A stretch of 64,000 bases of DNA from assembly GCA_002049455.2 (NCBI GenBank), contig KV918792.1, forward strand, positions 1 through 64,000, written 5' to 3'. This DNA comes from Porphyra umbilicalis. Its lineage: Eukaryota > Rhodophyta > Bangiophyceae > Bangiales > Bangiaceae. Below are positions 11,572 through 38,280 of this stretch, one piece after another. Positions within the stretch are counted from its first letter, which is position 1, and each line of letters begins with the position of its first letter. A program made the translations under genes and the position numbers. The notes under the pieces are model-generated. The model had not been told where the DNA came from and did not search any database. It worked only from the letters and a program-made list of their open reading frames with translations.

Positions 11572-11615
11572 TGTAGGAAAAAAAAAACCCCAAGAGGGAT
11601 GAAAAAAAAACCTTT
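11572..11615 (-). terminator. T-tract / hairpin / T-tract at the end of the Myb gene, copy A
   Basis: Read on the minus (gene) strand: T9, then CATCCCTCTTGGGG with a CCC/GGG stem, then T10 and CCTACA. It lies about 30 nt past the Myb stop codon. The same design follows the other Harbinger genes here (23191, 31831, 47262, 47591). Confidence 0.5.
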
Positions 11616-11643
11616 CGTGGTATCGGACTGCTGTCACATGGAG

Positions 11644-12927: not shown

Positions 12928-13009
12928 GTTGTATTTTACTGCCGGTACGGCGGGGGGGGTGAAGGAGACCTTGGTGGGGAGGCTGGGCGCGAGCAGGCAC
13001 CAGCATATA

Positions 13010-17479: not shown

Positions 17480-20368
17480 GGACCAGCGCCCAGAGATGGG
17501 CCCAGAGCCGCTCTGCCTGCCGCGAACATGGCTCGCGACGGGCATGTGCACTCATGTGACTTGTGAATGGGGAAGCGAGGCTTGTGCCAGGAGCGTGGGG
17601 TCACTCAACGCCCCAGTGGCTGCCCGTCCTGTTGCGACGACAGAGCAGCCAAGACGGCCCCAGGCCCCCGCGCGGCGCGGACTGCAAGAACCTCCCGTAT
17701 CTGCCTGTCTGCCCCAACCTGAGTGACCTCCTGGCCTTCGGGTTGTGGCAGGTGCCAAAGCTGCTGGAACCCTGCTTGTTGGTACCTGAGCGCCTTGTCG
17801 TGCCAACGAGTTTCCTGCCGTGTGCTCTGACGCTCGATGTTTTTCTCAGGGGGCTTCGCGCAAAAGCGCGCTCGAGTCCCTCCCAGAGGCATGGACGGGA
17901 CACCACTTGGTCAGGTCAGGGCCTTGTCCGAGGGCCTGAACCTATGGAAAAGTGACCAGGGCGCGGCTGCCACGCAGAACAGTAGGATGCAGCATGCAAG
18001 AAAGACTGTGGCAGTCACACATCACAGAATGTGGGCACCTCTCGTCCAGTCACGGCGGCGACACCGACGCGGTCTTGGCGCCCCTCTGTAATGGTCAGGT
18101 GCACGCGCATGAGTCGACTTCCAGGCGTCCTACCACGGCCAGGTGTGGTGCCAACAGCCGAGATGGCACCAACTTTCGCTGACCTGTCAGGCTCACTACA
18201 GTCAGGCCAGGAGCTGTCACGCCGGTCGGATGTCGTGCGACGGGACGAAAGACTGCATGGGTCCGACGCACTTGGTGCCGTGTCCACGCTCGAGGTCCGG
18301 AGAAAAAATGTTCTGTGATTTATACCCGAAGACAATGACCGGATATGTGGACCAGCGCCATAACCACATCTGGAGCTGTGATGCCGCACAATATGTGTGC
18401 ACGTAAGTGAAGAGAAGAACGAGTGACGGGGCAAGCTCCTGAAGTGCGGGTTTTCTTTGAGACAGCTCCTCGAGGTGCCAAGCAGTGAGGCACGTCGCCT
18501 CTCTATATGCCCCAAAAGAACCTGGGAGGACCACGACAGGCACAAAACCTCCTTAGCATGCCTATGAACCTCCGTGTCCATTTCAGAAGCACCTGAAGAC
18601 TGCCATAGGTACCCGGTGTCCGCCCTGCACTGCAGTATCCATCGAGGCGTCCAAGGGCTGCAACAGCCCACAGGCCCGGCTGCAGCACAACCTCCGCTGA
18701 CATCTCGCTTGCCCTCATGGGCGACGGGGGCTGGCGGCGGCGGCCATCGGCTGAAGACAGCGGCGCCAGTGCCGGCGCGGGCCGAGCGCCGGCCGCAGGG
18801 CCGGCGGCAGTGGTGGGCAGCCCAGGCGCGTCGGGGGGGGGGGCAGGAGAAGCGGCCCTGAGGGCCTCTGTGAGGCCCCATGCCGGGCATGTGATTGGCC
18901 GTCACATTGGCACGTTCGATTGGCCCGATTGGCAAGCATGCCAACAGGCTCGTAGGGACTGGAACGGCGTCTGATCCAGCCTGTGGAGGCCGGTGACCCC
19001 TACTTGCCAAGAGATTGCGGCTCTTCCTATGCCGCAAAGGACGCTTGTCATCCTGTCGATTGGCGTAAATCCCAGCCACTGCAGCTGGTAGATGTCTTGT
19101 AAATGCGACCAAGGATAAGATACAATTACTTTATTCGAGAGGACGCAACTGGCTCGGAGCGTGCCTCCCACCCCTCCCAACCCCAGTGGCTGGGACATTA
19201 GCGACCGAGCTCCCGCTGCTGACATCAGGCGTCTTCTCCGGCACTGCCGACTTCCGGCGCGACGCCCCCTCCCCACGTCAACCCGAGAACGAGCCGTTGG
19301 ACAACCGCCCGCCCAGCGCCCCTCACCGCGCCCGCCACCTGCGGGCCTCACGTGCCGCCCACAGGCGTCGCCAGGCCGCGCTCGCCGGCCAGCGCGCCGG
19401 CCTGCCCGCCCGCCCACAGGCCCACTCGTAGCACATGGCAACTCCAAGGGTCGGTAGGGGACGGTCATCTCACCGGCTTGCGGCGGCGGCCGCCGAAAGC
19501 CAAACACGAAGTAGCGCACTCCCTCCCTGGACTAACTGAGAGACACCACGTCACCATCCTGTACCTGCCTTGTGCTCCTGTCCCATGCCGCACGGCCGGC
19601 ACGACAGCGGTGGCGAGGCTGTCGGCACTCGCTGGCGCAGCAGTGCGTCGGCAGTGCCGCGGCGCATCGTATCGCCTCCGCCGTTTGGCCGACGCCGCTG
19701 CGTGGCAGCGCAGCACTGGCCGCGGCGCCAAGCGACAGCGTCGTCCGCCACCTTCCTATCCCGCAACGGCGGTTAACAGCCTTCCCTGCGGCCACGGCGT
19801 CCCAGGTGCTCATGAGGGCGCACCGCCACCGTCGCAGTGGTACCGCTGACCGAAACCACCGCTGCTGCAGCATGCAGCCGCCGCCCCGAGCTGCAGCTGC
19901 CACGTACCGCAGTCGCTGCGGGCCGTAGCCGCCGCGGGCGGCCGCCTTCGCGGGCCGCCGCCAGACGTCGCGCCTTTGCAACGCACTGCAGACAGACAGC
20001 CGCTGGTGGCAGCGACGCTGCCTCCCTCACAATGATATCGCCCTTTGAAATTTATTCCTGTTGTGCGCCGTGTCTGGCGTTGGGCATCACGTACACGGCA
20101 GCTTGTTGCTTCACATGGGAACCAAAGACAACTTCATATCACTTTTTGGAGACCCACGCCCCGGCCATGGTGCTCACTTTTGATGGCGACTCAAATGATG
20201 CTGGCAGCCTTGAAGCGGTGTACAGATGAGCTGCATCAAGTTGTGAGCCTGGTACTCCGCCGATCATCTTTTGGCCCGGAGGCAAAGAGCAAACCCGGCA
20301 ACGTCGGCCCCAAGTCATATTTACGAAACGTGGCGCAACGTGACGCAAACGTGTCTCAATATTGAGGA
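17480..20368. other. Long stretch without a recognised gene
   Basis: Unique-looking sequence. Minus 18015-19112 is open for 365 codons but has no motif and mixed, coding-unlike composition. A cluster of four ATTGG boxes is at 18894-18932. An AT-richer segment begins near 20030. Confidence 0.4.
18894..18932 (-). promoter_or_regulatory. Cluster of four CCAAT boxes (minus strand)
   Basis: ATTGG occurs at 18894, 18906, 18919 and 18928, four times in 39 bp at near-helical spacing. CCAAT boxes bind NF-Y in eukaryotic promoters. No gene is assigned to it. Confidence 0.3.
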
Positions 20369-20537
20369 AATGGGGTCGGAACGCTCCCGCATCAGCGTCT
20401 GCGACCCCATTTACGCTTCGTTTCAACCAAATCAAATGACGGAAGTACAACGCATATGTTGGTTTCAGAAATGGGGCCTGTGCCGGACGGACCGCATTCC
20501 CGACCGGAAATAGGGTCGGTCCCAAGCCGACCCCATT
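20369..20537. mobile_element. Candidate MITE of about 169 bp
   Basis: Perfect 11-bp inverted repeats AATGGGGTCGG (20369-20379) and CCGACCCCATT (20527-20537) bound an AT-richer segment without an ORF. A smaller internal hairpin GGGTCGG/CCGACCC overlaps the right end. No target-site duplication is clear, and no second copy is in the window. Confidence 0.35.
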
Positions 20538-20539
20538 CT

Positions 20540-21636
20540 TCTATGCTCTCTCATTGCTCGAACGATTCTAAACAGTACAGAAGATAGCACGTTTAGGCGA
20601 GCAGGGTGTGGGCCCACGATCAGCCTTGGTTTTTCAACATCATTCAGAAACGAGAAAATATCGATATGGACCACTCCTCTCCACAGCGGACCGACAGCTC
20701 TCGCGAGATTTTTCGGTTACGGCGTGCTCAGAGGGAAGCGCGTCGGATATTTTTGCGTCCGCGTGCCACCCACGCATTGCTCACAGGGCAATCTGACAGG
20801 GGGGGGGCTGTTGAGCCGGGTGTGGTGTGCCTGCGTTGGCCCTCCCTGGGGGCCCACGTGGAGGAAGGTCGTGGCGCGAGGGCGGCAGGGGCCATCGACT
20901 GCGCCGCCTGAAGGGGCGAAAATGGGCCGGTCGCTGTGCCACAGCGCTTGGGGCGCCCTGAGAGCTGCCTGAGGGGGTGGTAGAGCCCAAGCGGTCGCCC
21001 CTGGACGGCGGGAGCCGCGATCTGTGCCATCTGGAGGGGGTTGGCGTCCGAGCCACCCTGCGTCAGTCGCAGAGGCCCGCACGAGCGCTGCCTGGGGGGG
21101 GCGGTGCTGCCTGGGAGGGGGGGTGGGGGATCATTCCGGCGGGCATCAGCGGTGAGGAAGTGTGCTGGGGTGGCTGTCCGCAGTGGTCGGCTGGACACGC
21201 CATTTAGGGTATGGCACGGGGCGCCCACCCTTTCCCACCGCCGTCGTCACGCCCATCCCGCCGCCGCCGATTTTCGCCCACCCACCACACCCGCGAGCAC
21301 GGCCAACGCGACCCCTCCTTCATCCCACCGACCACGCGCTCCGCCCGCATCGCTCGTGTCTTCCATCCCACTTGCCCCTCCTCCCCGTCTGGATGCGATC
21401 GGCACGCGCCATTCGCTATCTGGCGTGCCGGCATCTCCATCTCACCCCCCCACCCCTCGTTGCACGCTTGGCTCCCTCCTTCTGCGCGATCTCGCTCGGG
21501 ACGGTCGCTGCTTGCATCGGTCGCCCCCCCCCCCCCTTACTCCTCCCTCTTGACGCCGCACTGCACGCGCCTGTTGTTGTTCCCATTTTCTTCCTGCGAC
21601 CCACGGAGTCCGGTCGTCTGCGTCCCTGCTCTTGCT
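20540..21636. other. Spacer and pyrimidine-rich leader before the element E transposase
   Basis: 20540-21190 shows no gene. From about 21220 to the transposase ATG the plus strand is strongly C/T-rich with few purine runs. The same kind of leader precedes the histone gene (28150-28258). Confidence 0.4.
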
Positions 21637-23325
21637 ATGGACGGCAAGGAGGAGGAGTTTTCGGCCACTGCGACCTTGCTCGCTGAGGACGACGGCGCGG
21701 ATGTAGCAGTCCAATCTCATGTCAACGTGCTGATGGCTGTACGCCGACGCGCGCGCGCCCAACGCATTGCCCGACATTGAAGGTATCGCAGCTCTACGAC
21801 CGGGCGCCGGGGCAACAAGCGCCGTGACTTTGCAGCTGGTTTGCAAGGCATTCTACGGGACTACTTTGGTGTCGGTGGTCTTCCGCCCATCTATGACGAG
21901 CGGGACTTCGCGACGCAGTTCCGTGTCCCTCGCGCTGTGTTCTGGCGTGTCTACATGGCGGTCAAGGACGAGCCCATTTTTCAACAGCGGATCAATGCCA
22001 CGGACAAGTTGCAAGCGCATCCACTACAAGTGGTGGTGGCTGCTTTTCGTGTTATCTCTTACGGCGAGGCGGCCGACCGAGCCGACGAGTTCCTGCGATT
22101 GTCCCGGACGACGATTGCGACGTCAAACAAGTTGCTGATGGACTTCATTGTGAAGCGATGGGGACCTACCTACTTGCGCCGACCCAACCAGGACGAGCTG
22201 AGCAAGATCAAGGACCGGAACAAGGAGCGGGGGATGCCCAAGTGTATCAGCTCCCTCGACTGTTGTCACTGGGAGTGGCACCCATGTCCGACGGGGATGT
22301 CGGGGGCCTATCAGAGTCGGAAGGGCAGGCGGGGGATCGTTGTGGAAGCTGTTTGTGACGAGGACCTGTGGGTGTGGCACCTCTTTTTAGGGGCCCCTGG
22401 CAGTCTGAACGACGTCAACGTCATGCACCAGTCGCCGCTGTACCTGGAAGTTACTTGCAGTCGGTGACCGCCGCGCAACAAGCCTTACACGATGAATGGC
22501 CACACGCGCATGCTGCCTTTCTACCTCGTCGACGGGATTTACCCGCGCTTTGCTTTCCTGATCTCCCCTGACCCTGAGCCGTCCACCGAGGAGCAGACGA
22601 CGTTCGACCGCCTCCAAGCGGCCAATCGCAAGGACGTGGAGCGCCTATTTGGCGTCCTGATGAAGCGCTTTCATGTTGCGCTCCACCCTGGGCGCTACCG
22701 CTCTGTGTTGCAGCTGGTGACGACGTACAAGGCCATCTGTATTTTGCACAACATGTGTGTCGAGAGCCGTCGTAGCACGTTTTTGAGCCGACGTCGACGT
22801 GACACGGGGGGTGATGGTGGAACTAACTGTTGCGTAGGCGGCGACGCCGGGGTCGTGTCGGATGGCGGGGATGGACAGAGTGGTGGGGCGCATGCTGTCG
22901 GTGGTGCTGCCGCCGGGGGACCTGCACCTGACCGCGCCGCTGCCGACGGCCTCGGCGGCGTCGCGGCCGCAATCGGCAAAATTGACGCCGCCGGCAGCGC
23001 ACCTCCTGCTCTGCATCCGGACCCTCACTTGCCCGCCCCCGGCACGGCTGCCAATTTTGACGCGTGGGCTGAGACACAAAACCCGGCGGAGTGCGAGAGC
23101 CTGCGCGACGACCTGACTGCGGACATCTTCTGCGACCGAGGAAATCTGCTTGCCCGGAACCACGTAGTACATAATAGAGGAGGCATGCAACGGGGTTTTT
23201 TTTCCCCGCTGGGCAGGGGTTCTTTTTTTCCAACACACTTTTGCGTCGACCATGTGTTCGGGAGCGGCGGGAGACTCCGCCTGCGGCGTCAGTGGCGTCG
23301 CAGTGGGAGGTGCGTCGGTACTTGA
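21637..23325 (+). pseudogene. PIF/Harbinger transposase of element E, two in-frame TGA codons
   Basis: One reading frame runs from ATG 21637 to 23325 but contains TGA at 21778-21780 and 22465-22467. HARBI1/PIF-type motifs are clear: IYDERDFATQFRVPRAVFWR, first Asp in SSLDCCHWEW (near 22255), second Asp in GAPGSLNDVNVM (near 22395), Glu in RKDVERLFGVLMKRF (near 22640). The second TGA falls where the element C transposase has Trp (EWPPR), so it is TGG to TGA; the first aligns with a Pro/Arg position. A Gly/Ala-rich linker leads to a C-terminal WAET...LRDDLTADIFCDR block shared with element C. The ORF runs past the homologous end into the T-tract motif. No Myb partner is seen nearby. Confidence 0.88.
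23191..23235 (+). terminator. T-tract / hairpin / T-tract after the element E transposase
   Basis: GGGGT8, CCCCGCTGGGCAGGGG (CCCC/GGGG stem), TTCT7, CCAACAC. Same design as at 11572, 31831, 47262 and 47591. Confidence 0.5.
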
Positions 23326-24370
23326 CAAGTGCAAGGTGGGGGATGGTTGGCGGGTGTCAGCGAGTGCGCCGGTGGGCGTTGCGGGGCGTGGGGGTGCCCG
23401 ACGGGTGCGGGGGTGAGTCGCGGCTTTCGGCGGGCAGCCGAAACGGCCATTGTAACAGGGCCGGCCCGCCGCCGGACGCCGTCGGCTCGGTGGCGGCGGG
23501 CCGCCTCCACGACCAGCCCGCCGTGAGCAGCCCGCGCCGGCTGGCACCGTGTCGGCGGCGGCGGGCAGAGAGGGGCTGTCAGAGGTGGCTTGTAGCTGAG
23601 TGTGGCGCGGCGCGCGTGCGGAGCGCGCGGTTTCGGGCGTGCCGTCGGTGCGGCGGCTGCCGTGGTGGGGTGCGGGGGATAGTCGGGCGCGGTGGTGGGC
23701 GTGGTGCGTTGCGGGGGACTGTCGGGTGCGGGGCCTGGTGCGGTGGGTTGCGGGCGAGTGTTGAGTGCAGTGGCGGGCAAGCGGTCGATTCGTCGGCGGG
23801 CGTGGCGTGGGGGGGGCCGGTTCTCCACGGGCGGTGGGGCGGGTCGGCGAGCGGCAGGCGGCCGCAACGGCCAGCCCGCCGCTCCTAGGACGCTGACGGC
23901 CGGCACATCTGTGGCAGTGGTGGCGTTGTGCGGCGGGGTCGTCGGTGCCGGTTGCTGCGGGGGATGGCGTCGTGGGGGCGGTGGGCCGCCTGCCGGGTGG
24001 GGGAGGGGCAGTGCGGTTCGCGTTTCGCGGCGCCAACGGCGCGCCCGCCGTGCCCAGCCAGCTGTGGGCCGCCGCCGCGCCGCGTTGGCGGCGGCGGGAC
24101 GTCAGCGGCGGCGGTTGTTGTAGACGCAGGTTGCGGCGGCTCCGAGCGGTCGCTCCGCGGCGGCGGCGGCGGCGGCGGCTCGTTGGGGCGGCAGCCGCGG
24201 CCGCCGTGACGGACGTCGTCGCCGGGAGCAGTACCACAGCGGTAGACGCCCGCCACAGGAGCCGCTGGCCACCGCAGCCGCCGTCCATCGCCATCAGCTG
24301 GGACGCGCCGCGAAGGCGGACGCGTCGCAGGCGGTCGCACCTGCGACCTTCTGCTAAGTCGGGCCGGTGG
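23236..24370. other. GC-rich low-complexity stretch after element E
   Basis: Gly/Ala/Pro/Arg-coding in every frame, with G-rich near-repeats (GGTGCGGGG-like at 23640-23760). A minus-strand ORF is open for 584 codons because of composition. A convergent Myb gene would be expected here by comparison with element C but is absent. Confidence 0.45.
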
Positions 24371-25140
24371 TAGCGCGTCAGGCTCGTGGGCCACAGCACC
24401 TTGGCCGCAGGGAACGCCTGCCGCCCGACACTGCGTTAATGAATAAACATTTCTGCCTGCATGTGATATGTAAAAACGTTTCGTCTTTACGAAAAGCAAA
24501 GCAGAGGACGAATTCAAATGTTTGTTCTCCAATATGTCCCGAGACGGACCCGGTCCAATAAAAAGCGTCCATGTCTGAACAGAGCCCAAAATCACGAGTG
24601 TAGATCCCCTTCCGTGATCGCTGCAATGACGTCAAGAACCAATCAGCAAACTTGGTCTTGTAAATCAGTGCCAGGCTTTCTTCAGCGTAGTCCCTTAATA
24701 TCGATTCTAAGTCTCATCATTGGGTGATGCTGTTCAAGTCGTCAGCATCCAATGCATGATCGTGGGCAGGGGCCCCTGCGCAAAGAAAGCGGGACGCGAC
24801 CTGCAGACATTTTGTCACTACAACGTCGGCGGTTCTGCCCACTCGCTTTTTAGAATTACTTCTTCGTAACTTCGAGGCGACACAGGCGCAAGCTGTGTCG
24901 CCAAGAAGTCGCCAACGGGGGCTCCAAAGAGAGTCATACGGTTGATTCAAGGGGACACCCCAGCAAACGGATAGCTAACCGGTTTGTCCGGGTTCAGGCA
25001 TAATCTGCAGAACATATTTACCACTGATTCTGGGCATATGTCTCAGTACTATTTTGCTGATGCAGACTTGTTTATCCAATTTAGTGCTAATCAATGACTG
25101 GCACGCGACCAACCATGTTAGTCAAGTGACATCGTCAATC
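24370..25140. other. AT-richer spacer, no gene seen
   Basis: Abrupt fall in GC. An AATAAA is at about 24441. No ORF with recognisable content. Confidence 0.5.
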
Positions 25141-25679
25141 ACGCAACGCCGCTGCCGCCGCGGCCGCAGTGGCGGCCGCCCCCTCGCCTCCACCCTGCGG
25201 CCCGCCGCGTCGGCGGGCCGCAACCCCCGGCGGGGATCGCCCCGCCCCCCCCCAGCCGCTACCGACCGCGCCGCCGCGTAGGCGCGGCGCCCCCGCAGCA
25301 GCGCGCGCACGTCGAGGCCCCCCCCCAGCTGCGCCGCTCCCGCGCCGTATCGGTGGGCCAAAAACGTCGCGTGGGCGGGCAGCACCGCGTCCTCCCCCCC
25401 GGCGGCGAGCACGTAGGCGACAAGCGCCTTGACGGCGGGGCGGAGGCGGCGGCGGGGCCGTCAGAACCCGCGGCGGCGGCGCCCGCGGCGGCGTTGTGGT
25501 TCGGCAATGCCGCCGCCGCCCACCCGTCCCAGGCGGTCCACAGTGCGTCGGCAGGCAGACGGCCGGCCGCGGGAGCGGGGGAGAGGACATCCGCCGCCGC
25601 GTGGGGGAAAGCCGCGTCGCCGGCCGCCGCCGCGTCCGCGCCGCCGTCGGCCACCGCCGCGCCGCCGCCGTCTACCGCC

Positions 25680-25714
<35 letters not shown>

Positions 25715-26940
25715 GTCGGCCGCCGCGCCAACGCCGCAGCCGCCGCCGCCTCTCACCACAAGCCTTGCCGCCGCGTGCCCGTCGGCCACCGCCCGCGTCG
25801 CCGTCGTTGGCGCCTTGGCCACGGGCAGCCGCCGCCGCAGCGGCGGCGACGCGGTCAATGGCGCCGCGGGGCGGCCCGCGCCCGCCGCCGGTGCGGCCCG
25901 CCCCCACGGCAGCGCCGCCGACCCGTCGGTCGACGCCGTGGTGGCCTTCAGCGGCGGCGGCGGCACGGCGAGCGCGTCGGGCGCGGGCGCGGCAGCGCCG
26001 ACACCCGCCGGCGGGGCCTCTGCCGCTTCTGCCGCCGCCGGCGCGTCGGCAGGCGGCGCCGACGGCGGCCGCCAGCGGGGCGACAGCGACGGCCGCCACC
26101 GCTTCTGCCACGAGTCGGCGGCGACCGCGTCGCCGCGCGGCCGCCCCGCGCGCGGCCGCGGCCCCGCGTCGGCGCTCCCGCGGAGTCGCGGCGAAAAGGC
26201 TGCGTCGCCCACCGCGGCGGCGGGCGCCGCAGACGCCGGAAAGCGCTGGTGGGGCGGGTGCCGGTGCCGCTTGCCCGACGGCGTTCCCCCGCTGCCTCCG
26301 TTGTCTGCTGCGGCGGCGGTCGCGGGCGGGGCGTGCCATCTGCGCGCCACCGCGGGCAGCGGGGGGGGGCGCCTCTCCTCGCGCCGGCCACCAGCGCCCG
26401 TCGCGGGTCGGCGCGACCGCCGGCGGCGCCATGGCCGCCCCCGCGGTGTAAAGGAGTACGGGGAGGCTGCGGAAGATGCCTTTGGTGCCGCCGCCGGCGG
26501 GGTGGCAAGCCGCACCAGGCGGCAGCGGCGGCGGCGGCGGCGACGGCGACGGCGACGGGCGCGGCGGGGGTGGGTGCGGCGACAGCGGCGCCGTGGCCAG
26601 CCCCGACAGTCAGCGGCTTGCCAAGTTGAAGAGCAACGCGGAGAGCGCGTCGGGGGCGCCCGCCTGGGGGCGGACGTCGGGGGACAGGGGCGGCACGGGA
26701 AGAGCGCCCAGGCGGCCGGCAGAGGGTGACTGCCGGGCGCCCCCGTCGCCCCCGTCGGTGCCCGTCCGCCGCCGCCCCGCCGCGCTGCCGCCTCCCGCCG
26801 TGACCTCGGCCGACAGCGGCCGCCACTGCCTTCGCCCCGCCGCCCCTGCCCCCCTCTTGGAGCTTGCGCCAACGTGCGTGCGGCAGTGGCGGGGGATGAG
26901 CGCCGGCTGCCTCTTGTGCCTTTCGCGGCCGGTGGCGGCG
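25140..26940. repeat. GC-rich block with GCC triplet runs
   Basis: Nearly pure G/C with a GCC microsatellite at about 25675-25712. All six frames stay open for hundreds of codons, so the 458-codon plus and 537-codon minus ORFs are no evidence for a gene. The minus segment at 25122-25412 (AHATFLAHRYGAGAAQLGGG) is the most protein-like part. Confidence 0.5.
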
Positions 26941-28258
26941 GTTATTGGAGCCCCTCCCGCACCCCCCCCAAGAGACCCCGGGGGATTCCTATGTGACCAG
27001 GCCACCGCCAACCAATCATACTGCTGGAAAAACACAACTGCACGAGCAGAACAATACGGACACGGCTCTGATCCAATGAAAATCGTAAAAAAACACAACG
27101 TCCCAGGGCAGCAACACTGTCCGCGTCAGAGTCTCTTGTAGGGTAGGGCGGCACCCGCAAATCAGAGGCCGAGTTCACAGGCAAACCTGCTGGCGATGCG
27201 CGCAAAGCCTTGCATCTGGATCGAAAACGGCGGCGAAGACGGGGCAGATGTCGGCCTTAGGCTTTGTTGCTGTCAGTGATGTCGTCCGAGTAGCTTCTGA
27301 GTGTGGCCGTTCCCACAGATGTCAAGAAGTTGTCGTTCAGTGCACACTTTGCCGGGGACTTGGCCGCATGCACATCATACTCATTGTCTTGGTCGCGTCC
27401 GGGCCTGCCCCGAGAAATTTATTGTGTCGCCAGATCGCCGACCTCGCACACCAAGCCGTAGGCCGCGAATCAGCTGAGTTGCCACTAAGTGTCGCCCTCG
27501 AATCGCCGCGAAGTAACCAAGAAAGCGCGTGGGCAGGACCGCCGACAAAATTCGCTGCTTGCTCTGAGGCCAGGAGGTGGGGATCTGCACGCCTTCGTTG
27601 TGAGGCCGTGAGCCGGAGATCTGGGGGCGAGGACGGTCGTGCGCAGGACGAGGCAAGGCCATTGGAGCCGCACAGAGGGGGGCGTCATCGTCAACAGGAG
27701 GTGACTGGCGCGGCCCGTCGGATCAGCATCCCTTTGTCTGCCGATGCAATGCGCACTTCGGCAGGAAAACAGTCCGGCTGAGGGTGCCAACCAAGCATTG
27801 CCGCACAGTGACGTGGAGCCCAAAACGCTGGGATTGCATGACTCTGCGAGCTCACTACCCCGCTGAAAAGGGTTCCCTCGATGCAACCAGCTCGCGGAGC
27901 GATGGACTTCGCGACCTGCCCCGGGGGACTGTGGGAGGCGCTGGGCGTGCAAGCGATCTAAGGCGTAAACCGAAGGCCTATGGCTGCTACAAGAAGGAGG
28001 CCTTCCTAGCCTTGTCTGCGTCGCCCTGTCGCACAGCTTCTCCCGTCAGCCTACCCCCCCCCCCCCCCCCCCGTTCCCCCGCCAACCTCGGTCCCTGTCA
28101 CGGCCTGCCCCTGCTGCGCCCACTGTGACCTGGCTTGCATCAACGCTCTCGCCTCCGCGCACGACTCTGCCCACCGCACCTCACTCCCCACTCTCCTCTT
28201 CGTGTGCCCCCCACTCTGCCCCCATCTCCTGCTGCCACTGCCCCTCCTTTCCGCCGCA
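26940..28258. other. Spacer upstream of the histone gene
   Basis: No gene recognised. A run of about 20 C lies at 28052-28072. The last 100 bp before the ATG are pyrimidine-rich (CTCCCCACTCTCCTCTTCG type), a likely 5' leader or core promoter of the histone gene. Confidence 0.4.
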
Positions 28259-28666
28259 ATGGCGCGGACGAAGCAGACGGCACGGCGGTCTACTGGCTGC
28301 AAGGCGGCGGCTTGTCTGGCGCGGGCTGCCGCGCGGCGGGCGACCAAGGCCGGTAGCAAACCCGCTGTCAAGCGCCGCTACCGGTCTGGCACGGTCGCAC
28401 CGCGCGACATTCGCAGGTTTCAGCGCTCGGGGGAGCTGCTGCTCAGCAAGCTCCCCTTTCAACGACTTGTGCGCGAAGGCACGCAAGAGTACACAAACGC
28501 ACCGCGCTTCCAGGCTTCCGCCGCTCCCGCGCTGCAGGAGGTGGCCGAGGCGTACCTCGTCGGGCTTTTTCAAGACGCGCAACTGTGCGCTGTCCACGAG
28601 AAGCGCGTCACTGTCATGTCGAAGGACATCCAGCTTGCTTGCCGCATCCGCGGTGAGCGGTCGTAG
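28259..28666 (+). CDS. Histone H3 variant with Arg at both ARKS-motif lysines
   Basis: Intact, intronless 135-residue ORF, the usual H3 length. The histone fold is complete: [51 protein letters not shown] and a final RIRGERS. The tail begins [13 protein letters not shown]4 and K14 are kept but K9 is Arg. The second ARKS motif reads ARRA, so K27 is Arg and S28 is Ala. K56 (RRFQRSG) is also Arg, and the K79 region is EYTNAPRF with no Lys. K18 and K23 are not recognisable. Loop 1 has no insertion, which argues against a centromeric H3. It would sit in nucleosomes but resist K9/K27 methylation. Flanks are repeats and a C/T-rich leader. Relaxed constraint on a retrocopy is the alternative. Confidence 0.93.
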
Positions 28667-28846
28667 ATAAATCTGTTTTATGAGGGGCCTGCTTATAGAT
28701 TATTACCGTCATTCACTGCTGCGAGTGGCCTTACTTGTGTGCTGAATGGACGCGGTGAAGAAAGTGGGAACATTTGCGCAAGAGAAAAAAGAACAAACAG
28801 GTCGACTTTCCCATCCACCCTTGTCACCGCCCCCTTACGGGGGCAC

Positions 28847-30215
28847 CAAGTCAAAGCAGGCCAGCGTCGAGAGAGCCGGGCGTCCGGCGGCGCCGGCGCG
28901 ACGGGCGGTGGTGGCGGCGGCTGCCGTGCTGGGGGTGGCGGCTCCGCCGGCGGGCCTGCCACCTGCCTCTTCCCCCGCGACGTGGTCGGCGGCACGGCGC
29001 TCGCGGCGGCCGCCTTCCGCACCGCCGTCCGAGCGGCGCTGGTCGGCGGGCCGGTGCGGCGGCGGGCGGCGGCCGCCTTGCGCGCAGCCGTCGTGCTGCT
29101 GCCGGCGCCGAAGGGGGTCGCCGCCGCCCTCGCCGCCGAGGCGGTCACCCAAGTCGTGCCGTTCGTGGGCTGCGGGGAGGTGGCGGGGTCCACCCCCCCC
29201 CGCCGCCCACGAGCGGCATGAGAACCATCGCCGCTGCGGGAGACACCCCCTCCCCCGCCCCCCCCGCTGCCGGGTCAGCAGGGCCTTGGACGCGGCGGCG
29301 CCCGGCGGGGCGGCTCCTCGCACCCCCTGCGCCGCATCAACGTCGCGAGCGCCAACGCGTGCACCCCGTGGACGGCGGCGCTTTGGGCGGCGGGTCCGCC
29401 GGCGCCTGCCCAAGTGAGACCGTGGCGGAGGCCGAAGACGGCCTCATCGTTGCCGCGCGTGGCGGCCACCCCCGCCGTGCTTGCGGTGGCGACGCGCCAC
29501 CCCGCCCCTGCCCCCGCCGCGGCGCGCACAAACGCGCCCACGTAGGCCGTCAGCCGCCCCGCGAGGCGCGACGCGATGGCGGCGGCGAGGGGCGGGGGAG
29601 GTGGGGGGGGGGGGGGTACCCCGACAATGCCCCCCGCGCGATGGGGGGTGCGGCCGGGGGGGTGGGAGGGGGGCCCGCCCCAACCGACAAGGTACCGCCG
29701 CCGCCGCCGCCGCCACCGCCATCGACGATGCAGGGTCGGCGGCTGAGATGCCGGCAGCAGCGTCCGACGGCAGCGGCACCCCCGGCAACGTCATCGCCTG
29801 GGGCGGCGCTGGCGGCGCCGCGACCGCCACAACCGCCACCACCGCCGCCGCCGCCGAGCCGCTCCTCGCCGGTGCCCTCAACACCGGCGCCATGGTCGGG
29901 AGGAGGGCGGCGCGCGCCGCCGCCGCCGCCAAATGTGCGGCGGAAAAAGGCACCGTGGACGCAGAGGGTACCGCCGCCGGGGGCGAGGTAGCAGCAGAGA
30001 ACTTGCCGGCAGGGCGCTGGCCACGTCCGAAAGGGTCGTGCGGATGCGAGGCGTGGCGGTGGGGAGGGGAATGGCGTCGGTGGGACGCTACCGGTGGGGT
30101 CGGGCCCGCCAGCGAGAGGCGACGGCGCAACCCGACACAGGGTGGCGGTGGTGGCCGCACCGAGGACAGACGGCGTACACGGGATCAAATTTCCCCCGCG
30201 CCGCCCCCCTAGTTG
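28847..30215. other. GC-rich low-complexity block of copy B
   Basis: Same content as 8873-9975, plus the part lying left of the gypsy insertion in A (1-273). Open frames on both strands come from composition; no gene is called. Confidence 0.5.
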
Positions 30216-30239
30216 GCCCGTGGCGCAGCGGGGACGGGC

Positions 30240-30830
30240 GGCGGATCCTGACTGTTTGGTCTGCCCTGGAACTGGATGCTTTAGAATCTCCGCACTCCAT
30301 TGGCTACAGCGCACGATTCTCGCATGCGATTCGACAGTGCGTAATGCCAGCATCAGCCTGTTTTCTTGCGTCCCTTTCTGTTAGGCTTAGCAGATACGCA
30401 AGTTCGGTGTCAAATATCGGATCTCTTGTCATGCCAGGATCCACACAAGACTCAGGAAATGAGCATGCGACAGGCACACAACATGATCACAAGACAAGCA
30501 ATAGCAAACTCACAAAGTTTCGAAATGAATATAGTTGGGTGGTACTTTATTTCGATCAGTGATGCATGAACGTTGCCATTCTAGGCACAATCGACATGCT
30601 TGCTTGGTGCCCCCCGCTCGAAAAGTGAGATATGATATGTGTAGGGATATATATGTATACTGGCACATTGAACTCTGTGCACACGACACAGGCCTGGCAC
30701 GGGTCATGCGGGGCCATTCATTAAACACATCGTTCGACTGATCCCAAGACTCCCGAAACAAGAAGCGTTGCGCTCGAAGAATGCGGATTCAATATGGTTC
30801 GAAGTCGAAAGCCCACGCTGATAAATAAAT
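30240..30830. other. AT-richer block of copy B
   Basis: Counterpart of 9990-10570. The 22-bp palindrome of copy A is decayed here, and the two-way AATAAA hairpin keeps only one intact arm. Confidence 0.5.
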
Positions 30831-30969
30831 GATGTTCGATCTTTGGGATTCTAGGCTGGCCGAACAAAACGCGTTCCGATGCGGCACACACGCGTTCCGA
30901 TGCGGCACGCATGCTGTTGGCGGCGCACGACCGCGCCCGCGGCGACAGCCTCGGTAACCGTCGGCGACG

Positions 30970-31440
30970 GTGGCGGTCCGCACGGCGGGCACCCTGGCTG
31001 GGTGGCGCGCCCCCGAAGCGGCGGGCAGCCTTGCTAGGCGGCGCGCTCTCGCGGCGGGCGCCCTGGCTGGGCGGCGCGCTCGCGGAACGGCGGGCAGTCT
31101 GGCGAAGCGCCGCGCCCCCGCGCGGCGGGCAGCCTCGGTAGGCGGCGCGCCCCCGCACGGCGGGCAGCCTCGGTGGGCGGCGCGCCCGGGCACGGCAGGC
31201 AGCCGGGCTGGCTGGTGCTATCCCGCGGCAGGCGCCCTGCCTGGGCGGCGCCCCCTCGGCACAGCGGGCAGCCTCGCTAGGTGGCGCACTCCCGTGGCGG
31301 CCGCCCTGGCTGGGCGGCGCCCTCCCGCAGCGGCCGCCCTGGCTGGGTGGCACGCTCCCGCGGAGGGCAGCCTGGCTGGGCGGCGTGCCCTCGGCACGGC
31401 GGGTAGCCTGGCTGGTGCCGCCGGGCGGAGCGGCCGTGGC
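30970..31440. repeat. Irregular 33-36 bp minisatellite, copy B
   Basis: Counterpart of 10690-11210, with the same GGCAGCC...TGGGCGGCGC units. Confidence 0.8.
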
Positions 31441-31830
31441 GGCCAGCAGCCGCTCGTCGGGCGGACAGGCGGGGGGGGTGATGGTCCTTAGACAGCTGTT
31501 GTGCGGCACAGCTTTTTTTCACCACCCTGTCGGGCACTCCTGTAGTACTGACGGCGAGGACTGCGTGGGCTGCCGCCGCTTCAGCAACAGCCGTTGTTAG
31601 CGCCACCGTTGTGTGGTGACTCTGTCGGCGGCAAGGCGGACGGGGTGCGACGTGCGAAGGGGAGAGAGGTGGGCAATGGTGGGTTAGGGGGAATATGAGG
31701 GACCAACTCTGTCACGCGCCCGCCGTGAAGCTGGTGGGGGACGCGGCTGCGGATGGCTCTGACGCCGCCGCCCCGCTGCGTGCGCTGCGTCACTGGCAAC
31801 GGTGCGCACCGAGATGGGCGTGGACACAAG

Positions 31831-31876
31831 TATAGGAAAAAAAAGAATCCCAAGAGGGATGAAAAAAGAACCTATT
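31831..31876 (-). terminator. T-tract / hairpin / T-tract at the end of the Myb gene, copy B
   Basis: On the gene strand: GGTTCT6, CATCCCTCTTGGGA, TTCT8, CCTATAC. The T-tracts are interrupted, but the CCC/GGG core is unchanged from copy A. Confidence 0.45.
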
Positions 31877-31939
31877 ATGGTATCGGACTGCTGTCACAGG
31901 GAACTACGGCACAAAGAACAAAGCAACACACTCAATACA

Positions 31940-33187
31940 CTACTCAGACTCCGTGGTGGTCTTTGTCGTCGTTTCGGACTCGCTGCTGTGCTCGAGACCG
32001 CGGGTGGTCTCGAGCGGTTTGTTGAAATACGCAGAGCCGGACAGCTGCTTTGCGGCTTGCGCCTTGCGGCCGCGCTGGTTTTCGCCCCTCCCGGTGCGCT
32101 GCTTCGCTGGCGCCGCCGGCGTCGCCGCCTTGTCCGCTGGAGCTGTGGCAGCGGCAGTGGTATCTGCTGCCACGGACGCCGCCGGTGGGTCCTCCCCCGG
32201 CGGCGAGTTGGCTCCGGCGGCTGAGGCGGGCGCCGGCGGCGCCGACGAAGTTGCATCGGCAGGGATAAAGGAGACGTCCAGGGCGTCCACGCCGTCGTCG
32301 ACTTCGACAACGAGGATATCCGTTGCAGGTTTGGTCTTGGCCGGCTTAGGTGGGGCAGGCGGCGCAGGTTTCTCCGCCAGGCCGGCACTTGCCATCATCT
32401 TCTGCATCACAGCTCGGCGATACTTGGCTGCCTCCGGGGTGCTGCGAATTGCAGAGGAGTCGAAAAAGCACAGCGCGGTGCGCTCTCGCTGCGCCGCCGT
32501 CAGCTTTTCCACAGCCGCTGTGCTCGCCTTGACCTTCCTCTCCATGCCCGCGTCCTCGGACCTCATCAGCTTGGCGGCCTTAATGCGACACGGTCGGCGC
32601 TGGTAGCCCTTGTTGCGCGTACTGGGGCTGCTCCTACTGCCGCTGTCGGCGTCCTTGTCCGAAGAGTTATCTGGGTCCTCGCTCTGGTCGACCGTAGTGT
32701 TGGCAGCGCCGCTGAACGTGTCCGACGTGCGCAGCACGCGCCAGCATGCCACGCACTTGCAGTGCGCGCGCTTGGCCTTCCGTTTTGCCGCCTTGCCCTT
32801 GAGCTTGTCCTGCTCCCGGTCTTTGCCGATGGCTTCTTTGATGTCCAGCAAGCAGTACCGTGCGATGGGCCCACTAATGATGACCTCCTCCGACAAGTTG
32901 CCAGTAGTTTGCATGTTCTTGACCGCCAGGTAGTGAGAGGTAAAGGTGCTCACCCCCTTTCGAATCTTCTTGAACTGCTTCTCGCGCGCGCTTACAATGC
33001 GCTTGACGTGCAGAGGACCCTTCTCGGCCATCAGTTCCGTCCACTTCTTGTGCACAGCCGCCCACAGCTCGTCCTTTGACGGCCCGGTAGCTATCACCGG
33101 ATCACCTCTCACCTCTAGAAACGCGCGGCACAGCGGCACGCGGTCCTCATCAGTCCCGCCTAGGCTGGACCCCATCGACTGCGGCAC
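31940..33187 (-). CDS. Myb/SANT-like Harbinger partner protein, copy B
   Basis: Intact 415-residue ORF close to copy A across its whole length, with the same Myb-like helices (DELWAAVHKKWTEL, REKQFKKIRKG), the YLAVKNMQTTGNLSEE segment, the basic Cys-containing centre, the acidic Ser/Asp linker and the Pro/Ala-rich tail. It stops slightly earlier than A (ending TTTESE). Substitutions relative to A are spread out and none breaks the frame. Upstream on the same strand, 69-, 48- and 30-bp arrays could belong to a 5' exon, since Pro/Gln-rich frames stay open there; I cannot define a splice site. Confidence 0.8.
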   Translation of the reverse strand: MPQSMGSSLGGTDEDRVPLCRAFLEVRGDPVIATGPSKDELWAAVHKKWTELMAEKGPLHVKRIVSAREKQFKKIRKGVSTFTSHYLAVKNMQTTGNLSEEVIISGPIARYCLLDIKEAIGKDREQDKLKGKAAKRKAKRAHCKCVACWRVLRTSDTFSGAANTTVDQSEDPDNSSDKDADSGSRSSPSTRNKGYQRRPCRIKAAKLMRSEDAGMERKVKASTAAVEKLTAAQRERTALCFFDSSAIRSTPEAAKYRRAVMQKMMASAGLAEKPAPPAPPKPAKTKPATDILVVEVDDGVDALDVSFIPADATSSAPPAPASAAGANSPPGEDPPAASVAADTTAAATAPADKAATPAAPAKQRTGRGENQRGRKAQAAKQLSGSAYFNKPLETTRGLEHSSESETTTKTTTESE

Positions 33188-33289
33188 GTTGTAGATTACT
33201 GCCGGTACGGCGGGGGGGGGTGAAGGAGACCTTGGTGGGGAGGCTGGGCGCGAGCAGTTACCAGCATATACGACGACGGGGGCGGGGCT

Positions 33290-33545
33290 TGGCTCCCGCC
33301 GATGACGTACAGTTGTTGGGGCGCCGCCTCCGGCGGAGTCTGCTGCTAGGGAAGGGCTTGGCTCCCGACGAGTACGATCAGTGGTTGGGGCGCCGCCGTC
33401 TGCGTCGTTTGCTGCGAGGGCGGAAATTGGCCCCCGCCGAGTGCGTGAAGTGGTTGGGGCGCGGCCGCCTGCGTCGTCTGCTGCTGGGGCGGGACTGCGT
33501 TGCCGCCGATGACAAACAGCGGTTGCCGCGCCGCCTCAGCCGGCG
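33290..33545 (-). repeat. 69-bp tandem array upstream of the copy B Myb gene
   Basis: Four units marked by TTGGGGCGC-like starts at 33316, 33385, 33454 and 33523, an exact 69-bp period (23 codons). On minus it encodes a Gln/Pro/Thr-rich unit, e.g. QQTTQTAAPQPLIVL. The ORF spans 33346-33798. Confidence 0.8.
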
Positions 33546-33814
33546 TTAGCTGCGGCAACGGCGGCGGCGGCGCGGGAAACAAGATCAACGGCAAGGATGT
33601 GCTCGGCTGTTGGGCGGGCGTCAGCGCGCAGTCGTAGGCGTGCCCGCCGTGCGGATTGGCGGGTGACGCGCCGCTCCAGAGCGTCGGAGGGATGGACGGC
33701 GGCCGCCAGGCGGGAGCCCACGTGCTTGGTGGGGGGTGCCCAGAGGTGGGTCCGTCACAGGGGGGGGGGCCGCCGTACGCGCACCGATGGTCGTCCAACG
33801 GCCGTCGAGGAGAG

Positions 33815-34054
33815 CTCCACCGGAAAGGACCTTGTGGGGGACCCGCCGGCCCGCGAAAGGGGCTCCACCGAGGGGGGCCTTGTGCGAGACCCGCCGTCCC
33901 GCGAGGCGGGCTCCACCAAGAGGGGCCTTGTGGGGGACCCGCCGGCCCGCGAGGGGGGCTCCACCGAGGGGGGCCTTGTGGAGGACCCGCCGGCCCTCGA
34001 CGAGGGCTCCACCGATAAGGACCGTGAGAACGGCCCGCCGGTCCTCGCGGGGGG
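33815..34054. repeat. 48-bp tandem array
   Basis: CTCCACC markers at 33815, 33863, 33911, 33959 and 34007 give five units of exactly 48 bp (16 codons). Frames on both strands stay open, e.g. minus SRAGGSPTRPLLVEP. Confidence 0.85.
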
Positions 34055-34950
34055 CTTCACCAACCGGGGTAGTCACGACCGCCGTGCGGGTGCGCAATCT
34101 GCCGTGCGCCAGGTGAGAGCGGTTGGCCGTCGCGCCCGTCTTCCAGCCGTGCACAAACGCGACGCTTTTGTACGGGAGGCCGGCCGCCGTCAAAAAGCGG
34201 CCGATTGTCCCGCCGCCCCAATGGAGGGGGACGGGGGTCAGGGCGGGATGGCAGGCGCGGCTGCATGGCCCGCGGCGGGGGGGGGGGGGAGCGTCCAATG
34301 CGCCGTGGACACAGGGATCGACACAGCGAAAGGAACGGGGGCGGGAGCAGTGGCGGGGTGGCGCGCACCGGTTGGGAGGAGGTGGGGGGGCGGGGGGGGG
34401 GCGCCCGTCGGCGGCCCCGTGGTTGCACGGCCCCGTATAGGTGCAAGGCGGGGAGGGCGGAGAGGGCGGGGCGGCAAGGCGACCGTTGCGGAGCCGTTGT
34501 GCACGGCGCCGTCGCGTGTCACCGGCGCCCTTGACACGCATCATGCGAGCGGTTGGGGTGGGCGGGAATGGTGAGTGGGGGCGGGCTCGCAGACGGCGCA
34601 CGAGGGTGAATGAGAAGCGGGCGACAGAGCACGTCGGCGTGCGTGCTACAGGAAGGAGGCGCGTCGCCGCGTCATGCCCACTCCCACCTGCCGTCCGACG
34701 GCGTGCGAGCGCCCAGCCCTCAGCCGGGCCCGCTTCGCAGGCGCCCAGGCACACGAAAAAAGGACACCCACGGGGACCGACCAGCGCGCATGCAGGCCGT
34801 CGACACACGTGGAGCGCGTCAACAGCGCCCTACTGTCCGCGCAACACAATCTGGGCCAATCCGGAGGGACGAGCCAGTGGGACCAGCCACCACAGCCTGT
34901 TCCCGCCGATTCGTTTGAAGGTGGGAACCGCGCGCATGCACGCCACCCAC
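34055..34950. other. GC-rich stretch without a recognised gene
   Basis: G-run-rich sequence between two tandem arrays. Open frames but no motif on either strand. Confidence 0.4.
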
Positions 34951-35100
34951 GTAGGACGGGTGGGCGGCCGCGCGGGCCACGTCGGACGGCTGAGAGGCCG
35001 CGCGGCCCCCATCGGACGGCTGAGGGGCCGCGCGGGCCACGTCGGACGCCTGAGGGACCGCGCGACATGCTTCGGAGAGCTGAGAGGCCGCGAGGCGGCC
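34951..35100. repeat. 30-bp tandem array
   Basis: Five units starting at 34951, 34981, 35011, 35041 and 35071, consensus GTCGGACGGCTGAGAGGCCG followed by CGCGGGCCAC. Exact 30-bp period. Confidence 0.9.
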
Positions 35101-35950
35101 CCTGACGAGTCGCACCGCTGACTGCCGTCAAGCCTCCAGAGTCAGAGAGGGCATTAGCGCGGGGGTCGTTCCAACGTTAAATGATGACGAGCTTGTCACG
35201 TGACTTGCTGGCCATCCGTTCTGTGCCGTCGCTGTGTCCACAAGTTGCGCAAAGCGCTTCGCCCCCTCTTCATTGGCCCACTCGTTCACGATCTCATCCG
35301 AAGACGCGGGCCAGGTTACACCGAGCATTGGACATGTTGGACCGAAACGGACAGTTTGTGGCGTCGACCACGTTCCAAAAGTACAGTTTTCGGCAAAAGT
35401 GATGCTATCCAGGACGACAGATTGGTTCGATTGTCTGCTTCGGCCAATCACAACGCTTCTTCTCAGGCTGAGCGGTTTGAAAACAACTCCCGAGAGTGTC
35501 GCCGGCGTTGTATCTGACCTGTTGGCATCTCGCGACGATCCTGCCGCACGATGCGGATCGAACAAGTGCCGACGCCCGTTGGCCTGTTTGCCCGCCCAGC
35601 CGCCTACCGCTTCTTGGGTGCCCCGAACCGATCCGATTGCCATCGAAGAGACTGCACACGAGGAGATCGCACAGTGCCCAGGGCCCGTCGCATCTTTTGG
35701 GTGCCGTGTTTATGTCGTGGCCGTGCCAGGTGTCGGTCCGATAGTCCCTTGAAATTCCCCTTTCTTCGACGTTGTCATTGGTTTCGACGATGGTAGCGGC
35801 ATATCTGGCGATTGATAGGGACGTGGCGATCTCACCGCGACTGCTTCACACGCTTTCAGGCCATATTTTCGGTGGCTTCGGTTCACTAAGCGCCGATGGA
35901 GATCCTTTAGCGCTTCTTCAGTTTCACTCAAATTTGATGTAGCAGAATGG
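35101..35950. other. AT-richer unique spacer, no gene seen
   Basis: Base composition drops to near-balanced. Only short ORFs, no recognised motif. Confidence 0.5.
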
Positions 35951-36660
35951 GGCTAGTGTCTGTTCTACCGAGTGCATCATTTGATGCCCTGGGCATCATT
36001 TGATGCACTTTTTTGGCACCGTTTTTTTCGTGCTTCTCGGCCTCGCACGCTCCTTTTGACAACAAAAACGGACTCAGAGATGCTTTGTTACTCTTGAGAG
36101 AACTCGGAGCCATTGTGCTATGGATATTGCTGATCCCCGAATTTTGTCCTGGGGGACAGAGACAGAGACTGACTCTGAATAAGAGCACTCTATTGGTTTA
36201 AAACGACAGTAAGAAAGCATCGAAGCCAATAGAAAGCCCGCATTCTGTGCCAGGACCTTGCATCGAGCAGAACTCACTGTTTGTTGCCGCTTGATCCGCT
36301 TTTCTTGGCACGGAGCAAGCTGCCCACGCGAGATCTTGAGATTTTCTACTGTCTCCTCGCCAGAAGTGCGGAAAAGAAGAGGAGCGGATGTTGATTTCCA
36401 GGCTGCATGGGCACATGTAAGCAATCAGGAGCACCAAGTCAGTCCCAGGGGCGCATCTGATTGGTAGAGAGAGTCGGTCCGCAAGTCAGTCTCTGTCCAC
36501 CAGGACAAAATTCGGGGATCAGCAATACGAACGGGTGGTGCTCCAGACGCCAGACAGAGGCGGGTGGAACCGTCGTTGTCTGGCCCTGTGAGAGGGTGCA
36601 TCACTTGATGCACCACCGGGCATCATTTGATGCCATTTCGCGGTAGAATAGACACTAGGC
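35951..36660. mobile_element. Foldback-type element with nested inverted repeats
   Basis: Outer arms: GGCTAGTGTCTGTTCTACCG at 35951 and, inverted, CGGTAGAATAGACACTAGGC ending at 36660 (18 of 20 match), each followed inward by GCATCATTTGATGC-type repeats. Inner arms 36126-36173 and 36485-36526 are also inverted copies over about 42 bp, sharing CTGATCCCCGAATTTTGTCC. The centre (about 310 bp) has no ORF. Two nested arm pairs suggest a foldback or large MITE. No clear target-site duplication. Confidence 0.6.
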
Positions 36661-38280
36661 TCAACCCAGCAATAATGACGCCATTCGGACCGTCTCGTGG
36701 CTCGTTTCAACCCAACTACATCGCGCCTGACCCCTAACAGGGCCCCTAGAATGAGCTTTGCATTCAGCGTGCCACAAATTGCACTTCTAGATTCCCCAAT
36801 TGGAGAATGGGATCGTCGTTGCAGGGTTTGCTCTAAGAGCACACCCAACAACGTCTCCCGCAAGTTCTGAAACCCCAAACGGAATACGCCACGTCTGCTT
36901 ACGTGGAGGACGCTCAGCGGCTCCCCACTTTTCTCATCCAAGAGGGCCGTCCGCGGTCCTGGAGGTATCGAAAACAGGGGCTACATGGTCCAGAGATGGG
37001 TGCAAGAAGATGGGGGAAGCGTGCCTAGCAACGTCGACCCCCAAGCCGGCAGAAATCGAACATATATCCAAGCAGTCACGAGGTGAGGGAGGGAGGGACG
37101 AAAAGGCTGTGATCCCGACAAGACCGCGTCGCCACTTTCCCATCGTCTGTGCAGACTTTTGTTATCTGAGTAAACATACCGAAAGTCAGGTTCACACGTC
37201 TAAAATAAAGCGCCACGAACTGACAGGAACTGGTCGCCCTGCTGGCACGACGTAGAAAAATCTCACTTCGGGAAGACGCCTGGCGAACTACTGACAGATG
37301 ACGAGCCTGACGCGACAGCGCAGAGCCGCGACTTTCGGTCGAGGACCCTGGGAACGGGGTGCGCTGTGCGACGCGCTGTCAAGACGCGGCCACGGCAGGC
37401 ACCGCGCGGTCCGACAGATGCTTCGATTCGAATGCTTCCAGAACGAGAGGCGGACGGCGCCTTTGCTGGTGGCGGCGTTGGCTTGCGCAGAACGAGCCGT
37501 GCCGCAAGTGTCGAAACGAAGAGTGTCGGTGGGCCCGCGCGGGAATATCGGCGCGGTCGCGCAATCAATCACGTGATCCGTTTGTATGCAATGAGATATC
37601 TTTGAAAGTTTCCAATGTGATCTAAGCCATATCATTGGCTGCTGGAAATGTTCACAAATACGTTGGAATGGAGGCGGATCCATCATCGCCAGGGGTCAGC
37701 CGGCCCGTGATCAGATTCCTCTGGTCCCTGTTGGCGCCAGGCCCGCCCCCCCCTCCAATTGGTCGTAGGGCAGGCTCACGTCAAGCGTGGCGCGGCGGGT
37801 GCCTCAGCCGCTTCCACGAGGCGGGGATCTCGTCGACACAGGGGCACGCACGAGGCCCCGTGCCAGTGTCAGTGTGGCCCGCCTCGTGGGCAGCGCCGCG
37901 TGGGGCCGTGTCGCAGAGAGGGCCGTTCGGGGAGCCTCAAATGCACCTCCCTGGGCGGTCTCGGGCACACCTCCCGCTCGGGCGGGCCCGCAGCACCCTG
38001 CGCCCCCCCATTCACGCACGCGCACGAGGGGCCGCAGCGTGGAGTGCCATCCGCGGCTCGTTGGGGCGCCCCCAGGGCCGTTATCGGCTGTACGGAGGGG
38101 CGCCCCATGAGCTGCGGTCGCGCGCTCGTGCTCCGCGTGTGCGCGCTTTTCGTGTCGCGTGCTGTCGGCCGCCGGCGACGGCATATGAACACGCCGTCCG
38201 CCGGCGGCTCGTGTTCTCTCGCTCATTCATCCCAACGACCTCCCGCACGCATCCTATCACAGTTTAGTTCTTCCCGCCCT
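36661..38280. other. Spacer, no gene recognised
   Basis: AT-richer to about 37260, then GC-rich. A 210-codon plus-strand ORF (37635-38267) has no motif and Arg/Gly/Pro-heavy composition typical of chance here. Confidence 0.45.

Follow-up and report, generated by a model that had tools for sequence, protein, structure and literature searches.

A putative silencing-resistant histone H3 carried by a PIF/Harbinger-type DNA transposon in the red alga Porphyra umbilicalis

Introduction

Why does a transposon-rich stretch of red-algal DNA encode a histone H3 with arginine in place of both ARKS-type lysines? The gene lies in a window of 64,000 nucleotides, the whole stretch analysed here (Porphyra umbilicalis assembly GCA_002049455.2, contig KV918792.1, positions 1 to 64,000 of the forward strand; contig C32 in our numbering). 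A preliminary description of this DNA offered three guesses: an anti-silencing H3, a germline or stage-specific variant, or a drifting retrocopy. In another red alga, Cyanidioschyzon merolae, H3K27me3 lies over half of repeats, with low expression (PMC5405695), and in Arabidopsis deposition of H3.15, in which K27 is replaced, removes K27me3 (PMC10426802). These statements, like all those cited below by accession, refer to the parts of the respective papers that were covered.

Results

The gene that raises the question is the following.

28259–28666, + strand: histone H3 gene, 135 aa, with R9 and R27, a decaying copy (uninterrupted frame, Pfam, alignment)

The frame is open and stop-free, its 135-aa product matches the Pfam Histone family at 1.3e-31, and PDB H3 chains match it over residues 1–134. 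In H3 numbering, the alignment gives R9, R27, A28, R56 and T79, with K4 and K14 retained; the later part of the tail reads AAARRATK, so both ARKS-type lysines are arginine and residue 28 is alanine. The residue readings of the preliminary description (K9R, K27R, alanine at S28, K56R, no K79, K4 and K14 kept) are thus confirmed by reading frame and alignment. Its view of an intact H3 with the whole fold kept holds for the frame and fails for the fold: the protein differs from the majority protein of eight subfamily copies by 14 substitutions, including proline at positions 48 and 90, which we take to lie within helices, and glutamate at 114. Compared with its relative on contig C58, which has an intact H3, the window copy gave a dN/dS of 0.68 with a wide interval (0.28–2.06). 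On the strength of this ratio, the 14 changes and two stops in its transposase, the window copy is a decaying member of its family. R9, R27, R56 and T79 are not part of that decay but traits of the whole family described below.

Comparison with all H3 genes of the genome (an 83.8-Mb assembly of 665 contigs) identified 76 H3-like places, which were sorted by sequence, two weak matches apart. They comprise 51 places of the window type, a count that includes fragments, along with 4 canonical genes, 9 C-type places, 4 D-type places, the single variants L048, L049 and L067, 2 unsorted places and 3 that are second pieces of copies counted elsewhere in the tally. The host genes retain the two lysines: the three full-length canonical H3s (L043, L044 and L045) carry K9 and K27, and the fourth, L047, is partial with its tail missing. 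The window type consists of subfamily A, which includes the window copy, subfamily B, which holds most copies, and a third form, L039, with its own form of tail. At 64% identity to the host canonical H3, these proteins split from canonical H3 in a tree of 137 columns with 100/100 support, although the bootstrap had not settled and there is little resolution inside the group. A scan of viral contigs gave six pattern matches, none of which was a relative.

The flanks of the H3 copies are homologous, and the gene therefore lies within a dispersed repeat. The C58 copy, with both ends present, contains a 575-aa transposase frame at 21443–23170 (PF04827, 6.6e-61; PF13359, 4.6e-16), the H3 gene at 25614–26021 and a Myb-like gene at 29281–30531 on the other strand; the end of its transposase frame looks out of frame relative to the 528-aa frame of the C148 copy. 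In the window, the same element and a broken second copy can be followed.

20287–36833, + strand: window copy of the H3-bearing PIF/Harbinger element, in full (bounded on each side by an inverted repeat; 20286–24823 and 27548–35954 about 92% identical to the C58 copy)
20287–20311, + strand: left terminal inverted repeat, outer three bases AAA (inverted-repeat pattern and flank reading)
21640–23031, + strand: DDE transposase gene remnant (84% identical to the C58 frame and interrupted by two TGA stops)
24823–27548, no strand: stretch missing from the C58 copy, presumably an insertion (gap between two alignments)
31940–33175, − strand: Myb-like (DNA-binding-type) protein, 411 aa (place; Pfam match weak)
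35954–36655, no strand: second stretch missing from the C58 copy at this place (alignment gap)
36809–36833, − strand: right terminal inverted repeat, outer three bases TAA (inverted-repeat pattern and flank reading)
1–264, + strand: fragment of the second copy of this element (93.6% to 28847–29110)
274–8880, strand not given: LTR retroelement with ends 95.7% identical, splitting the second copy from 1–264
8868–13009, + strand: remainder of the second copy (92% to 29115–33270)
11683–12915, strand not given: Myb-like gene of the second copy (within 8868–13009)

The contig starts at window base 1, so the would-be H3 part of the second copy falls outside the assembly. Part of 35954–36655 recurs in inverted orientation just beyond the C58 element. 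For the 411-aa protein co-located with H3, Pfam gives only a weak NAM-associated match (0.0052), and the name Myb-like is our assumption, based on its place in the element.

The inverted-repeat pattern occurs 78 times in forward and 65 times in reverse orientation in the genome, compared with 0 and 1 matches for the reversed control. Twelve elements were examined, namely the C58 and window copies and ten others, chosen because both their ends had been located and they enclosed an H3 place. Identical 3-bp flanks (TCA, TGA or TAA) border 11 of them; the exception is the window copy, whose AAA/TAA flanks differ by one mismatch. The usual PIF/Harbinger target duplication is TWA. An H3 copy is present in all 12 elements; in C10 it is interrupted by one stop. 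Among the matches listed, a transposase lies upstream on the same strand within 9 kb of at least 31 of the 51 H3 places, a Myb-like gene downstream on the other strand within 9 kb of at least 39, both near at least 24 and neither near 5, with median start-to-start distances from H3 to its neighbours near 3.9 kb. Family H3s on C3, C164 and C211 (L039, L040 and L046, the last with a stop) have neither neighbour among the matches listed; a right inverted repeat lies 6.9 kb downstream of the C164 H3, and the C3 H3 is 3.5 kb from its contig end.

A DDE transposase of the appropriate family, short inverted repeats and a 3-bp target duplication are the traits of PIF/Harbinger transposons found here. 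Since inverted repeats and target duplications enclose the whole element, H3 is transposon cargo rather than a neighbour. Almost certainly it belongs as an integral third gene to a DNA transposon of PIF/Harbinger type, which encodes a transposase, H3 and an opposite-strand Myb-like protein with starts about 4 kb apart. A retrocopy is ruled out, as the target duplications stand outside the whole element and not directly around H3; of the guess of a drifting retrocopy, the drift suits the window copy, and the retrocopy does not survive the setting of the gene, which shares the space between Harbinger inverted repeats with a transposase and a Myb-like gene. A lone host variant, including the suggested stage-specific one, is likewise rejected by the copy number (51 places) and the co-location with element genes.

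When the C58 copy (subfamily A) is compared with the C148 copy (subfamily B), alignable sequence is found in the transposase, the Myb-like gene, the element ends and a block of 508 bp that includes H3; at the cut-off applied, the repeat-rich spacers show none. By the NG86 method with a codon bootstrap, the dN/dS of H3 was 0.071 (0.033–0.134) between A and B and 0.129 (0.058–0.226) between B and the third form, at a between-subfamily dS of 0.6–0.7. The A–B comparison gave 0.058 (0.038–0.094) for the 382-codon transposase core, 0.134 (0.098–0.180) for the whole transposase alignment and 0.190 (0.142–0.255) for the Myb-like gene. Constraint on H3 is thus similar in strength to that on the transposase core and stronger than that on the Myb-like gene, the intervals of H3 and the Myb-like gene nearly touching. 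A whole-frame transposase value of 0.160 had hinted that H3 is the most constrained gene of the element, an idea ruled out by the 382-codon core. The expectation for a decaying retrocopy, with no relatives and a ratio near one, fails for the family, which has 51 places and lies far from drift at 0.071; the window copy, at 0.68 (0.28–2.06), departs from this constraint.

Residues 9 and 27 were tallied in 39 full-length genome copies (L001–L042 minus L018, L024 and L037, which have stops) and in 35 environmental proteins, the latter chosen by eye as family members with canonical H3s set apart, a choice with which the tree split (100/100) agrees. Residue 9 is arginine in 39 of 39 genome copies and 33 of 35 environmental proteins, and residue 27 in 38 of 39 (one has W) and 33 of 35. 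Lysine occurs at neither position in any of the 39 or the 35 (environmental exceptions P, Q; G, L), so the canonical K9 and K27 are absent from both sets; two genome fragments outside the 39, L062 and L063, have P at residue 9. K4 is retained in 38 of 39 genome and 32 of 35 environmental sequences, and K14 in 38 of 39 and 33 of 35. Elsewhere in the transposon H3, K18 is lost to an alignment gap, alanine replaces K23 and arginine K56, and position 79 carries threonine (lysine in one environmental protein); the lysine before RRYRPG, a possible counterpart of K36, sits in a rearranged stretch. Fold changes relative to the host H3 are near-fixed at E105Q (39/39), R63S (38/39) and T58G (35/39). The R9 codon is CGG in all 39 copies, so by itself it is uninformative about synonymous change. 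The decay seen in a genome copy recurs in some environmental proteins, for example that of L025 in P0064, and such proteins probably come from the same species; others resemble further subfamilies. Centromeric H3s have a diverged tail and a longer loop 1; this identity is ruled out by the H3-like tail and by an alignment without loop insertion around residues 79–83.

Discussion

The best reading of these sequences, and one we consider probable, is that the transposon encodes an H3 that resists silencing through K9 and K27. An active element would make H3 that enters nucleosomes together with host H4, H2A and H2B. In such nucleosomes, no methylation would be possible at residues 9 and 27, and lysines would also be missing at 18, 23, 56 and 79, with K4 and K14 staying. 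Chromatin containing this histone would resist K27 (Polycomb-type) and K9 silencing, and transposase expression would continue. It might act on no more than the element that encodes it, with the Myb-like protein as a possible guide, or on the whole genome. To our knowledge arginine, unlike methionine, does not poison methyltransferases, and the occurrence of Arg rather than Met at residues 9 and 27 would therefore fit a design for incorporation and not for enzyme inhibition. Among the three original guesses, the anti-silencing H3 is thus the one with most support for the family as a whole; that a DNA transposon encodes it had been missed. The loss of K9 and K27 may nevertheless be one part of a wider divergence, as the histone fold differs from host H3 at many fixed sites. 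A profile search of the genome for Pre-SET, the K9 methyltransferase domain, gave no match, and the controls were likewise without match. We also consider, tentatively and with more doubt than confidence, that the element shields itself from silencing with its own histone, whose chromatin would not take K9 or K27 methylation, in a genome where E(z)-like CXC-SET genes (the K27 methyltransferase family) have multiplied to about 70 dispersed places; the two would then face each other in an arms race between a histone and its modifying enzyme.

Alternatively, H3 may serve transposition or packaging directly, for example as a special nucleosome at the element ends, with the loss of K9 and K27 as a by-product. 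The gene is as conserved as the transposase core, several fold residues (E105Q, R63S, T58G) have changed to near-fixation, and the same dN/dS would be expected if H3 had a chromatin role in transposition that did not involve K9/K27. However, relatives without H3 multiplied too. Among the matches listed, 63 pairs of transposase and Myb-like genes lie within 20 kb of each other; a listed H3 stands between them in 24 and is absent in 39. One of these 39, on C231, has a transposase 76–78% identical to those of A and B, about 1.7 kb between its transposase and Myb-like frames, and no H3 match there; the C173 and C76 elements resemble H3-family members by identity, with no H3 detected in them. Because sister Harbinger elements without H3 also multiplied, transposition as such does not need it. 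In addition, K4 and K14 stay while K9, K18, K23, K27 and K79 are gone, which also speaks against a transposition cofactor, and we regard this alternative as unlikely. The multiplication of these sister copies likewise counts against the silencing-resistance reading, in which the dependence of the escape on H3 is a candidate only.

Adoption of one or more copies as a host H3 variant, for instance at a reproductive stage, with selection acting there, appears quite unlikely. It would suit the finding that 39 of the 42 near-full-length loci (L001–L042) have no early stop, and the full-length C3 and C164 copies have neither neighbour among the matches listed. Yet the subfamilies between which H3 is conserved spread as elements with target duplications, and the C164 and C3 copies, given the nearby inverted repeat of the one and the nearby contig end of the other, may be parts of elements.

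An H3 caught by a transposon and simply drifting has a precedent in fungal hAT elements (PMC6710886), and the dN/dS (0.68; 0.28–2.06) and disruptive changes of the window copy point the same way. For the family such drift is very unlikely: the ratios between subfamilies are 0.071 and 0.129 at a dS of 0.6–0.7, and the H3 block is conserved amid spacers that do not align. The dN/dS values rule out a passenger for the family as a whole, and the description holds for individual dead copies. Lastly, an assembly or contamination artefact has a negligible probability, for although the genome is highly repetitive, the copies are spread over dozens of contigs, their flanks and target duplications differ, and eight named P. 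umbilicalis (BU14_...) database H3 proteins each have an identical counterpart among them.

Transposon-borne H3 is known from fungi, where hAT elements carry it in Pyrenophora tritici-repentis (H3L; PMC3538342) and in Pseudocercospora fijiensis and its relatives, in which all copies but the original are inactivated (PMC6710886). As in Porphyra, the H3 coding sequence lies between DNA-transposon inverted repeats in tens to hundreds of copies (PMC3538342, PMC6710886); the P. tritici-repentis copies are recent and nearly identical, have tail insertions and are represented by ESTs (PMC3538342). The fungal carriers are hAT elements, whereas the carrier here is a Harbinger in a red alga, and a fixed replacement of K9 and K27 is not reported in the parts covered of PMC3538342 and PMC6710886, a comparison made by description only. 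Canonical or Nuwa-type PIF/Harbinger (PHIS) elements share with ours the DDE transposase, inverted repeats and a 3-bp target duplication, and have a second protein of Myb/SANT type (PMC12730594), for which the 411-aa protein is the putative counterpart here. The Porphyra elements differ in their length of about 13–14 kb, in the histone gene between the two usual genes and in duplications of TCA, TGA and TAA.

Other selfish elements also carry genes that act on silencing. Harbinger elements with TET/JBP and HarbingerS elements with a SET domain have cargo that acts on silencing marks, as proposed here (PMC12730594); theirs are enzymes, whereas the Porphyra cargo would be the substrate, a histone without the modified residues. 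The VANC factor of Arabidopsis VANDAL transposons is likewise a transposon-encoded counter to silencing, and the non-coding tandem repeats of these elements diverge fast between families, but VANC binds DNA and induces sequence-specific loss of silent marks, with no histone involved (PMC10398659). Arabidopsis H3.15 is, like the transposon H3, a natural H3 without K27 (His in its place), but is encoded by an immobile host gene (PMC10426802). H3 is also encoded by selfish DNA in xenomavirus, sylvanvirus and others, which unlike the present elements are viruses (PMC9145170); in the covered parts of that review, the terms lysine 9, lysine 27 and K27me3 are absent. In the literature searched, with most subscription papers outside the search, no description was found of a Harbinger that carries H3 or of a transposon H3 with K9R and K27R. 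Transposon-borne H3 as such is therefore known from fungal hAT elements, and the Harbinger setting, the fixed loss of K9 and K27 and the purifying selection on the carried gene appear unreported in that literature.

Anti-silencing factors known from transposons include enzymes and DNA-binding proteins, and a histone without the silencing residues, if true, would be a different solution. The transposon H3 would be a natural K9R/K27R experiment under selection, and it opens to direct test whether substrate replacement suffices to evade K9/K27 silencing and how a nucleosome component could be steered by a selfish element. Additionally, surveys of H3 variants in such genomes can count transposon genes.

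Several further observations concern the element, the window and the genome. Element spacers (e.g., window 30978–31421 and L013:2379–3139) contain repeats that do not align between subfamilies and recall the fast-changing tandem repeats targeted by VANC. By eye, the LTR retroelement at 274–8880 has gag-, pol- and integrase-like frames. Window positions 45900–50000 hold a Harbinger relative without an H3 match (Myb-like gene 46043–47230, transposase 48719–49974), and 60213–63974 a 1253-aa frame with no Pfam match, perhaps another transposon protein. E(z)-type CXC and SET matches occur at 76 and 85 places in the genome, with SET within 800 bp downstream in 71 of the 76 CXC places, the control genomes being mostly silent in these searches (CXC matched in 0 of 14, SET in 1 of 14). 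One example (L096:978–4748, contig C50) encodes 1256 aa in a single frame, with matches to SET and CXC and a weak one to Ezh2 MCSS; some copies of this E(z)-like family share part of their flanks, and the family is possibly transposon-borne. The nine C-type H3 places (L050–L053, L055, L057, L058, L060 and L064) have an N-terminal tail that is diverged and long (about 250 aa in L051) and flanks up to 95% alike over 3.5 kb, with copia pieces flanking the copy on contig C1. The four D-type places (L061, L065, L068 and L069) have partly shared flanks and no ARKS motif, and the tail begins MARVKQ in three of them.
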